Shown: positions 22,266 through 25,958, numbered from the stretch's first letter. The stretch is DNA of 64,000 nt from Helicobacter sp. MIT 05-5293 (GCF_000765665.2 NZ_JROZ02000004.1:1-64000), one strand, 5' to 3'. Notes: generated from the sequence alone by a model not told the origin. Made by a program: numbers and translations.

Positions 22266-22625
22266 CTACTCTTGCGGAGATTCTGAATCTGCTTTGTGAT
22301 TTTTGAGTTCTGCGATATTAATCAACATAATACCGCCAATAGAAAGGGCTATACCTATTGTCTGTTTGGGTGTGAGAATCTCATTAAAATAAAAAATCCC
22401 TATGCCTACTACACACAAAACACCTAAAACTTCCCAGATAGCATAAGCTACACTTATAGAAAGTTTTTTGAGTGAAAGTGCCATAAAATAATATGAAAAG
22501 ACAAGCATTGCATACATACACACAAATCCCCATATTTGATATTGGCTTGCTTTCATAAAACTTGTAGCCAAGACTTCGGTTAGCACAGCGAAAATAAGCC
22601 ACATATAGGCTTTTTTAAAGCTCAT
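22266..22625 (-). CDS. SMR protein, subunit 1 of a pair
   Basis: A 119-residue four-helix protein. LIFAVLTEVLATSFMKAS in helix 1 carries the conserved substrate/proton Glu of the EmrE class, and SISVAYAIWEVLGVLCVVG in helix 3 is typical. A hydrophilic tail (NHKADSESPQE) follows helix 4. Its start overlaps the lgt stop by four bases, and the partner SMR gene follows after nine bases, so lgt and both SMR genes share a transcript. Confidence 0.85.
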   Translation of the reverse strand: MSFKKAYMWLIFAVLTEVLATSFMKASQYQIWGFVCMYAMLVFSYYFMALSLKKLSISVAYAIWEVLGVLCVVGIGIFYFNEILTPKQTIGIALSIGGIMLINIAELKNHKADSESPQE

Positions 22626-23527
22626 CGCTTTTTCCTTTTTGCGTGTTTTGTTTGCGGATAAGCCTTATATGAGGGATTCAAAAACACAATCAAAGCCAAA
22701 ATCACACTCACCCCTATCATCACAAGACTTAGAATCTGCCCCATTGACAAACCTAACGCATAATAGCCCATTTGAGAATCAGCTTCACGAAAAAACTCAC
22801 AACTAAACCGCGCAAGACTATATAAAAACCCATATAACACGAGCAAACTTCCCGGACGCTTTGCGTATTTAAACAATAAAATCATCACGATAAAGACGAC
22901 AACCCCCTCCGTAAAAGCCTCAAAAAGCTGACTTGGGTAACGCAAAGTCCCATCGACTAAGATTCCTATATGATGTGCAAAACTATCACTTTGTATCTCT
23001 CTCCCATAAAGTTCGTGATTGAGAAAATTACCTAATCGCCCAAACACATAGCCTAAAGGAATAGAAATTGCCGAAAGATCCATAAAAATAAAGAAATTTT
23101 GCTTTTTAACCACACAAAACAAAATTGCTGCCAAGACAAAGCCAACTAGTGCTCCATGATAACTAATCCCACTAATCCCCACGAAAACACCATCAACATA
23201 AGGATTAAACATCGTCCAAGGTTGCAAAAGATAATCCCACCGGTGTTGAGGAGAATAAATCATCACATAGCCGATTCTCCCTCCAAGTATCACGCCAATC
23301 TCTACCCAAATAAAAAAGCTATCAAGCAACTCTTGCGTGATAGGAAAGCGTTGATTGTGATACTTTACAAATGCCTTAGCAATAAAAAATGCGACTAGCA
23401 TTGCGCTCACATAGGCAATACCATACCAATGGACATTGATTCCAAACATTTCAAACGCAATAGGATCAATATAATCATAAATATGATTCCATGCACTATA
23501 AGACGATTGATGTAAAGTGTCCATCAC
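22622..23527 (-). CDS. lgt: Prolipoprotein diacylglyceryl transferase Lgt
   Basis: A 301-residue inner-membrane enzyme that moves diacylglycerol from phosphatidylglycerol to the lipobox Cys, the first step of lipoprotein maturation. Motifs: GISYHGALVGF (catalytic His), the Lgt signature GRLGNFLNHELYGRE, and LRYPSQLFEAFTEG. Seven hydrophobic segments are seen. The start is GTG at 23527 or the adjacent ATG at 23524; GGAG lies nine bases before the GTG. It is four bases downstream of the STAS-like gene, so it is co-transcribed with the chemoreceptor module. Confidence 0.96.
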   Translation of the reverse strand: MMDTLHQSSYSAWNHIYDYIDPIAFEMFGINVHWYGIAYVSAMLVAFFIAKAFVKYHNQRFPITQELLDSFFIWVEIGVILGGRIGYVMIYSPQHRWDYLLQPWTMFNPYVDGVFVGISGISYHGALVGFVLAAILFCVVKKQNFFIFMDLSAISIPLGYVFGRLGNFLNHELYGREIQSDSFAHHIGILVDGTLRYPSQLFEAFTEGVVVFIVMILLFKYAKRPGSLLVLYGFLYSLARFSCEFFREADSQMGYYALGLSMGQILSLVMIGVSVILALIVFLNPSYKAYPQTKHAKRKKR

Positions 23528-23530
23528 TGA

Positions 23531-23851
23531 CTACATCTCCATAATTTTAATTTTAAATTCATCGACCATATCCACTTCATCAAAAAACATAAAAAGACGC
23601 AAATCATCGACAATGATTTCAATACGCACTTTGTCTATATTTCTAAGTTTTAAAATATAACCCAATACATACGAACTGATAGGAAATGCTTGGACAAAAT
23701 ACAATCTCAAAATAGGATCATCGCTAGAAAGTATATTTGGGATAAAAGTCTCAAGCTCATTTTTAAAAGCAAAAAATGCTTCATAGGTTTTGAGTTTTCC
23801 TGTGCTTTTAATGATATGCAAATCATTGATCACTTCTGCACTTAACGCCAT
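23531..23851 (-). CDS. STAS-like protein, candidate anti-anti-sigma type
   Basis: A 106-residue cytoplasmic protein. It follows the STAS fold pattern: a hydrophobic strand, then LYFVQAFPISSYVLGYIL, where S59-S60 fall at the phosphorylatable Ser position of RsbV/SpoIIAA (compare IDSSGLGVL), then KVRIEIIVDDLRLFMFFDEVDMVDEF, which matches the last strand-helix-strand. No family is certain. It overlaps by ten bases with the upstream GHKL-like gene, as expected for a partner-switching pair. No sigma-factor gene is nearby. It could instead regulate chemotaxis or another partner. The call is by pattern only. Confidence 0.5.
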   Translation of the reverse strand: MALSAEVINDLHIIKSTGKLKTYEAFFAFKNELETFIPNILSSDDPILRLYFVQAFPISSYVLGYILKLRNIDKVRIEIIVDDLRLFMFFDEVDMVDEFKIKIMEM

Positions 23852-24342
23852 TGTAACCTCAACCGCATAGTCATTGTTTTATGCTTACGCACAGAAATGA
23901 TATGATGTCTAAAAAGCCATTTCATTATTTTTTCTCCTTTACCACCCAACAACTCATCGCATTTTTGCCTATTTACCATAAAATCTCTTCGTTGAAAAAT
24001 TCCGCCCAAAGGATATATTATATCAAAGGTTAAAAACCTAGTATTAAATGCAAGATAAACACATATTTTTTTACGCTCTAAAATACTTTGTCTATAACTT
24101 CTCTTAGCGTTATACACTTGCATCTTTTCCAATCCCAATATCCCATGCTCAATCACATTACTCACATATTCAAAAAGCATCGAGCCTAACAAATCAAATT
24201 GACCTTGTGTCTTTGGCTGATAAATAGGCAAAAATGTTCTAGCGTAGCAATACTTTGAAAGCGGAGCAAAGACAGAATCTACCCACAAAAGTATTGCATC
24301 GATGGATTGTAAATTTGCCTCAAAATACGCTATATGCCGCAT
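23842..24342 (-). CDS. GHKL-fold protein, RsbW/SpoIIAB-like with a degenerate ATP site
   Basis: A 166-residue protein. The N-box is clear: E58-x3-N62-x3-H66 in LFEYVSNVIEHG. A G2-like box is GGKGEKIMKWLF at 133-144, followed by TMTMRLRLQW, which fits the last strand of anti-sigma kinases. The G1 box (normally DxGxG) is eroded to YPLGGIF near 110-116, so ATP binding may be weak or altered. The gene starts 17 bases after the heme chemoreceptor and overlaps the STAS-like gene by ten bases. Function as an anti-sigma or chemotaxis-linked switch is inference. Confidence 0.5.
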   Translation of the reverse strand: MRHIAYFEANLQSIDAILLWVDSVFAPLSKYCYARTFLPIYQPKTQGQFDLLGSMLFEYVSNVIEHGILGLEKMQVYNAKRSYRQSILERKKICVYLAFNTRFLTFDIIYPLGGIFQRRDFMVNRQKCDELLGGKGEKIMKWLFRHHIISVRKHKTMTMRLRLQWR

Positions 24343-24359
24343 ACGCTCTTTTTAGATTC

Positions 24360-25958
24360 TCAAGTTTTAAATTTAGAAATCACACTATCAAGCTCTTGCG
24401 CTTTTTGAGACATACTATGGACAACTTTTTGGATATTGCGTCCCACATTTTGTGTCGATTCCGATGAAGTAATAATACTTTCCATCATTTGTGTCAATTC
24501 CTTAGTGCTAGACGCAATAGACGCACTAATCTCTCGTAATTTGACAGAATTTTGCTTAGTCAAAGTAAGTCTTTGATGTGTGCTGTGTGCATCTTCGATA
24601 AGTGGTGTCGTTTTTTCTGTAATCAACATCATTTCATCTGTGATACCCCTGATAGATTCTCCCATATCATTGACAGACTGCACGAGAAGATTTGTATTGG
24701 CTTCTATTTCTCCTAAAGACTTTTGAGTTCTTTCTGCAAGTTTTCTTACTTCATCAGCAACGACTGCGAATCCTCTGCCGTGTTCTCCTGCTCTTGCTGC
24801 TTCAATAGCTGCATTAAGAGCTAAGAGATTGGTTTGGTCTGCAATGTCATTGATGATAGAAAGAACGCTCTTCACCTCATCAGCATGCACAATAAGCTCA
24901 CCAATACTTTCAACAATATTTTGCTGTGTTTGAGCCGATGTATTAACAAGTTCGATTGAATCTTGAAGCTTATCGACAAATTTATCAAGCATTTCTTCGG
25001 TATCAGTAATACTATCAGTCGTCAAATCAATCGTTTCTCCAGCGACATCTGTATTTTCACTCACATTTTTTGCAAGTATATTGACCTTATCAACAAGCTC
25101 AAATTGTTCGTCAGAATTTTTTGCAAGTGTATCAGAAACTTCCAGCAAACGATCGCAAATTTGAGTATTTTCTTCACTTACTCGTTTGCTAACGACAATC
25201 GTATCCTGAATCGTCTGTATAAATTTATTGACATATCCAGAAGTAATACCAACCTCATCTTCGCTCTTAATCACAATCCGTTTTGTAAGATCACCGCTCC
25301 CGCTCTCTGTAAGATCCTTTGCCATATCTCGTAGGCGATTAAGTGGCTTAACCAATTCTTTCTCAAAAAAGATATAAAGCCCAAGAATTGCCAAAATCCC
25401 CGCAATAATCATCGCCAAAAGCATATATTCCTTGCTATTATCAATTTGTTCATAAAGACTATCAGATGAAATTTTAAGCTCCAAAACACCCAGCACATCG
25501 CCTGCTTTGACATGACCATACTCATGGCAAGCCATACAACTTTCATCAGCAATCAAAGGCTTTTGTAATATCACATTATGTGTTTTGCCTTCATGTGTTT
25601 CAATCAAAACAGATTGTTTGTTTTTAAAGATGTCTTGAATATCTTCTCTGACAGAAGGAGATGCAGACATACCAAACAAATCAATCACATCTTGTGATTT
25701 GTGAATCTCCAAAGACAATACGCCCGGAATCTTCGCTGCTTGCTCTAATCCCGCATCAATCATTTCCCGCATACCCAGATTCATACTCATACGCACGGTT
25801 TGAAAGATTGAATCTCCCAACATTTGAGCAGTCTTACTACCCTCGGCTTCTGCCATTTTTTCATAATCCATAGAAATGATATTATAAAGTGCGCTAAAAC
25901 CGATAATAATAAAAATAAAAAGTGTAAAAAGAACCTTGGATCGAAAAGACTTCAACAT
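24360..25958 (-). CDS. Methyl-accepting chemotaxis protein with a periplasmic c-type heme site
   Basis: A 532-residue chemoreceptor. TM1 is about 8-27 and TM2 about 178-198. The periplasmic domain between them contains one CxxCH motif, CMACH at 141-145, which is the covalent heme-c attachment site; FGEN-like flanks are absent but [17 protein letters not shown] is typical of heme PAS-like sensor domains. HAMP (about 200-250) and the signalling tip [20 protein letters not shown] follow. Such receptors sense redox state, oxygen or NO in other bacteria. It heads an apparent operon with GHKL-like, STAS-like, lgt and SMR genes. Confidence 0.85.
24680..24830. repeat. 151-bp direct repeat, copy 2 (in the heme MCP gene)
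   Basis: Identical to 17954-18104 over 151 bases, in the same orientation. The rest of the two receptor genes is not similar at this level. Confidence 0.9.

Follow-up and report, generated by a model that had tools for sequence, protein, structure and literature searches.

The 64,000-nucleotide stretch of Helicobacter sp. MIT 05-5293 DNA analyzed here (NZ_JROZ02000004.1:1-64000; "the window") carries on its minus strand a gene for a predicted heme-c methyl-accepting chemotaxis protein (MCP; 24360..25958), followed by genes for a stand-alone GHKL-like protein (23842..24342) and a STAS-domain protein (23531..23851), a cluster that is probably a reduced partner-switching module associated with a chemoreceptor. 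The MCP stop is separated from the GHKL-like start by 17 bases, the GHKL-like and STAS genes overlap by 10 bases, and 3 bases lie between the STAS stop and lgt, which encodes prolipoprotein diacylglyceryl transferase (22622..23527, minus strand; TIGR00544, 6.2e-66); this spacing is compatible with a single transcript. A scan of the cluster for promoters and terminators returned signals at chance level. Two SMR-family transporter genes follow, the first MdtJ-like (22266..22625; PF00893, 1.3e-16) and the second MdtI-like (21942..22259; PF00893, 1.8e-21), so that the minus-strand order reads ruvA (26021..26602), MCP, GHKL-like, STAS, lgt, and the SMR pair. No sigma-factor gene lies within the cluster. 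All of this bears out the layout described in an earlier note on this DNA, including the CMACH motif at residues 141 to 145 of the MCP.

Pfam and profile searches assign to the 532-amino-acid MCP a periplasmic c-type-heme Cache-like sensor, a HAMP domain, and a signaling domain. As a single sequence it matched MCPsignal (2.2e-31) and HAMP (2.5e-8), with no other domain above the Pfam cutoff and Tll0287 falling below it (E = 0.036). A profile of ten related sensors matched PDB entries 3b47 (E = 1.6e-4) and 3b42 (E = 0.02), the sensors of the Geobacter heme chemoreceptors GSU0582/GSU0935, and nine of the ten sensors gave weak matches to the Pfam families Mcp40H-20 and Tll0287. The CxxCH motif, of which CMACH is the version in the window, is invariant across 10 relatives. 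These similarities support the placement of the receptor in the heme-c type, sCache_heme (DUF3365/Tll0287) class, as had been proposed from the motif. Members of this class have been described as heme-carrying Cache domains, with nitric oxide (NO) sensor properties when fused to signaling modules (PMC12889525), and the window MCP may likewise sense NO or redox state. As a separate matter, this MCP gene and a second one at 17760-19970, also on the minus strand, share an identical 152-base stretch encoding the signaling hairpin tip, flanked by codons that are only about 33 to 67% identical, which suggests that the tip has undergone recent gene conversion or been strongly homogenized.

The 106-amino-acid STAS protein drew no useful match from Pfam, NCBIfam, or the PDB in sequence searches; the Pfam STAS family, matched weakly by 3 of 17 of its relatives, was not reached. 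The AlphaFold model has a mean predicted local distance difference test score (pLDDT) of 90.6 and a β-β-α-β-α-β-α order, and the top PDB match of this model in Foldseek is SpoIIAA (1auz; probability 1.00, template modeling score 0.66), with SpoIIAA relatives also among the best. This model supports a STAS fold of the SpoIIAA/RsbV-like kind. Of the adjacent serines S59 and S60, which the earlier note had placed at the RsbV phosphosite, S60 opens helix 2 of the model and is invariant throughout the genus. Profile alignments with relatives and with SpoIIAA, the latter a weak match (E = 0.0035), put it on S58, the phosphosite of SpoIIAA, and we treat S60 as the candidate phosphosite.

The 166-amino-acid GHKL-like protein yielded nothing useful in the same sequence searches and had no Pfam hit. 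Its GHKL ancestry, as a descendant of RsbW/SpoIIAB-type kinases, is supported by motifs and by an hhalign comparison with SpoIIE-fused HATPase domains (probability 57, E = 1e-4; control probability 0.2), which extends over helix 1 and the N-box in the N-terminal half only. Across 12 diverged homologues, six alignment columns do not vary: S23, the N-box residues E58, N62, E65, and H66, and, in the G2-like box, G136. Among 22 stand-alone GHKL-like proteins from three genera, all have the N-box and 18 have a GxG pattern at the G2-like box (GKG in the window), whereas none has the DxGxG pattern of the G1 box, which is present in 11 of 11 HATPase domains of phosphatase-fused relatives. The N-box (E58, N62, H66) and G2-like box read earlier from the single sequence are confirmed, and the G1 box described as eroded is in fact absent. 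This is the fastest-evolving gene of the cluster, with about 30% identity within the genus and a ratio of nonsynonymous to synonymous substitution rates (dN/dS) of 0.24 to 0.38 in four close pairs, compared with 0.09 to 0.13 for STAS, 0.05 to 0.07 for the MCP, and 0.05 to 0.11 for lgt. Because it forms a single open frame in all seven homologues examined, and because of its dN/dS values, we regard it as a true gene.

Gene order, the loss of which would have counted against the proposal of the earlier note, was retained in the close relatives: ruvA upstream, followed by MCP (with CxxCH), GHKL-like, STAS, and lgt, occurs in 11 of 11 genomes of the window's genus, so the cluster is not restricted to this species. 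(Here and below, gene presence is based on open reading frame and HMM calls, and phosphosites and motifs on alignments.) The STAS profile recovered the following named relatives from this genus: H. cinaedi, H. magdeburgensis, H. labetoulli, H. marmotae, and H. japonicus. Across the family, the STAS protein was found in 86 of 121 Helicobacteraceae genomes and in all genera but g7, probably the pylori-type genus.

The most complete version in the family is at the same locus in a Wolinella-like genome (G017; 2.11 Mb, closed), which reads rluA, heme MCP (CLSCH), a response regulator-SpoIIE-HATPase protein, STAS, and lgt; the fused protein has 573 amino acids and an intact G1 box (DEGRGF). Genera g2 and g13 have GHKL, STAS, and lgt without an adjoining MCP, and g11 has a degenerate GHKL-like gene at that place; in all three the heme MCP, where present, sits elsewhere, so a pair that always requires the receptor beside it can be discarded. 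Two g9 genomes have heme MCP, STAS, and lgt with the kinase missing, and g3, g4, g10, and g12 have STAS and lgt only. In 10 of the 12 family genera with mapped STAS loci, lgt comes immediately after STAS, often overlapping it or a few bases apart. In the two exceptions, g5 and g6 (loci L115-L123, L174, L045, and L150), STAS lies away from lgt, with fliR as a neighbor in several cases, and the phosphosite is Asp, Thr, or Asn; an Asp there could mimic permanent phosphorylation. None of the 11 genomes in the window's genus gave a match to the SpoIIE phosphatase (PF07228) or PP2C_2 (PF13672), and among the 121 family genomes SpoIIE phosphatases were confined to G017, plus one below-cutoff match in one g7 genome. 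G017 also encodes two further STAS-family members (L167 and L168), one adjoining a SpoIIE/HATPase gene with its frame broken by a stop codon, and several partner switches may coexist in this genome.

Outside the family we examined 20 loci from six families, picked only by STAS similarity. The STAS gene adjoins an MCP, of either the heme or the nitrate/nitrite (NIT) type, in 15 of these loci and lies within two genes of one for a SpoIIE/HATPase protein in 12; its neighbors in the loci read were MCPs and phosphatase-kinases, never lgt. The STAS serine is invariant in 17 of 17 relatives from outside the family. Judged by these gene neighborhoods, the pairing of MCP and partner switch is widespread in Campylobacterales and not Helicobacter specific. 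A longer form of the module is seen in one locus of another family (L086, 1-5219), where genes for a 771-amino-acid protein and two response-regulator proteins resembling the phosphatase proteins come after the STAS gene.

A Ser or Thr at the candidate phosphosite is associated with the presence of the GHKL gene. In Helicobacteraceae the site is Ser or Thr in all 28 loci with an adjacent GHKL gene (Thr in g11) and in 9 of 50 loci without one (6 Ser and 3 Thr), the remaining loci having N, D, P, L, F, M, Y, R, or A. Counted by genome, the Fisher P value is 1e-13, but these genomes are related to one another. Within g2, one genome without the GHKL gene has lost the serine, and another (L155), with a 222-base gap in the gene's place, retains it.

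The family series and the neighborhoods outside the family together indicate a chemoreceptor-associated partner switch as the ancestor of the cluster, and they support descent of the linked GHKL and STAS genes from an operon of MCP, phosphatase-kinase, and STAS. We favor the explanation, at a probability of roughly 0.6, that the cluster is a reduced form of this module in which the GHKL-like protein binds STAS at its S60 surface, more likely without a normal kinase cycle than with one. In the ancestral module of Campylobacterales, a sensor MCP would have been joined by a STAS target and by one protein combining response regulator, SpoIIE phosphatase, and GHKL kinase. In the window's genus the regulator and phosphatase would then have been lost, leaving the kinase as the stand-alone GHKL-like protein, stripped of the G1 (adenine-contact) motif. 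This protein may still hold or release STAS through the S60-bearing surface, and freed STAS may act on a partner. The loss of both the phosphatase and G1 argues against a normal kinase cycle, and binding without phosphorylation, or an atypical use of nucleotide, is more likely; the active RsbW/RsbV-type switch suggested earlier is accordingly unsupported. Conversely, the invariance of the N-box and the serine argues against mere decay.

For the heme-c receptor, the main role would be conventional NO/redox chemoreception with signaling through CheA. Since the pair and the receptor occur apart in other genera, signaling from the receptor to the pair is only possible, a coupling that might have been inherited from the ancestral arrangement. 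The passing of a redox signal from receptor to pair, which the earlier note raised as a possibility, lacks support: g2, g13, and g11 (in degenerate form) keep the pair without an adjoining MCP, and most genera have STAS only. For STAS itself a motility partner is suggested only by analogy, as HsbA of Pseudomonas binds FlgM, a motility output (PMC6482189), and by fliR as a neighbor in g5 and g6. We put forward more tentatively the idea of a phosphorylation-free switch, in which, after phosphatase loss, the anti-sigma-type kinase, now G1-less, became a binding protein that still controls STAS via the former phosphosite surface; with an NO/redox chemoreceptor at the head of the operon, taxis sensing would be linked to a non-sigma output.

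Several observations weigh against the reduced module that we favor. The AlphaFold model of the GHKL-like protein is unusable (pLDDT 43.7); of the two folds expected in the earlier note, STAS is backed by a model, whereas the evidence for GHKL consists of motifs and a profile match that is weak. If neither nucleotide nor metal is bound, the invariance of the N-box has no easy explanation. The GHKL-like gene of g11 is assigned chiefly by its position. The link between phosphosite and GHKL gene weakens once relatedness is counted: with one vote per lineage, used instead of a formal tree, it stands at 5 of 5 versus 2 of 9 (Fisher P = 0.02), and these lineage counts are small. Finally, g3 mostly retains the serine although its GHKL gene is missing.

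We consider it unlikely that the pair is instead a working, receptor-driven switch of the kind proposed in the earlier note, in which the GHKL-like protein would phosphorylate S60 according to the state of the MCP, an unrelated phosphatase would reset it, and STAS would signal to a non-sigma output. The invariant phosphosite and catalytic N-box residues E58 and N62, the intact operon in every genome of the genus, and the recurrence of STAS beside MCPs with two sensor types in several families are what such a switch would show, but G1 is missing from every stand-alone homologue, SpoIIE is all but confined to G017, PP2C_2 is absent from the genus, and the pair is found also without an MCP alongside. 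Rather improbable as well is a decaying leftover, in which the GHKL-like gene is disappearing, only STAS or neither protein matters, and persistence comes from linkage to lgt. The rapid evolution of the gene and its absence from many genera, the mere gap left at L155, and the absence of STAS from the pylori-type genus would fit such decay; set against it are the open frame and invariant N-box throughout the genus (11 of 11 genomes) and in two further genera, a dN/dS far under 1, and a Ser or Thr kept wherever the GHKL gene is kept. A role for STAS, with or without the GHKL-like protein, in acting on Lgt or lipoprotein maturation, with the chemoreceptor a mere neighbor, draws on the adjacency of STAS and lgt even where MCP and GHKL are lacking, but is very improbable given that STAS lies apart from lgt in g5 and g6, beside fliR or other genes, and adjoins MCPs and phosphatase-kinases instead of lgt outside the family.

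The reduced module can be compared with several known systems. The Bacillus switches SpoIIAA/SpoIIAB/SpoIIE and RsbV/RsbW/RsbU share with it a STAS phosphosite serine, a GHKL partner with an N-box, and overlapping genes in one operon, and their SpoIIE-type phosphatase is also present in the Wolinella-like relative; in the window's genus, by contrast, the cluster lacks a sigma factor, PP2C phosphatases are absent, the kinase has lost G1, and a chemoreceptor stands at the head of the operon. HsbR-HsbA of Pseudomonas and CrsR-CrsA of Shewanella (PMC6482189) resemble the full Campylobacterales version in that a partner-switch protein with a response regulator is combined with a STAS antagonist. 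They differ in that the abstract of PMC6482189 places no MCP at the head of the module, the switch is driven by HsbA phosphorylation, and the targets, RpoS/FlgM, are known. SypE-SypA of Vibrio fischeri likewise places a STAS-only protein under a kinase/phosphatase protein with no identified sigma factor as output, but differs in its dual kinase/phosphatase, its biofilm locus, and its lack of a chemoreceptor (PMC8256260). The sCache_heme sensors, including Geobacter GSU0582/GSU0935, likewise carry a CxxCH heme sensor in the periplasmic part of an MCP (PMC12889525, PMC3460858), but partner-switch genes are unmentioned, and STAS, SpoIIE, and operon do not occur in PMC12889525. We found no description of the chemoreceptor/partner-switch arrangement in the literature searched, the coverage of which was partial; within that coverage the absence of a described system of this form in Helicobacter holds, but the arrangement itself is spread through Campylobacterales.

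These loci tie chemoreceptors to partner-switching proteins across Campylobacterales and provide a natural reduction series, from a complete switch to a kinase without phosphatase, to the target alone, to nothing, in which it can be asked what a phospho-switch retains once its phosphatase and the ATP motif of its kinase are lost. They also allow names to be assigned to unannotated genes of enterohepatic Helicobacter species. A second GHKL-type pair, unrelated to that of the window, was seen outside it at locus L001 (G000:C4:102862-106080; 887-2037, minus strand), where a gene for a 276-amino-acid protein with an N-box and a below-cutoff HATPase_c_2 match (E = 1.9e-5) is followed by an overlapping gene for a 107-amino-acid protein; the 276-amino-acid protein is the sole HATPase_c_2 match in the genome to which the window belongs and was rejected as the partner, being a different protein from the GHKL-like one.

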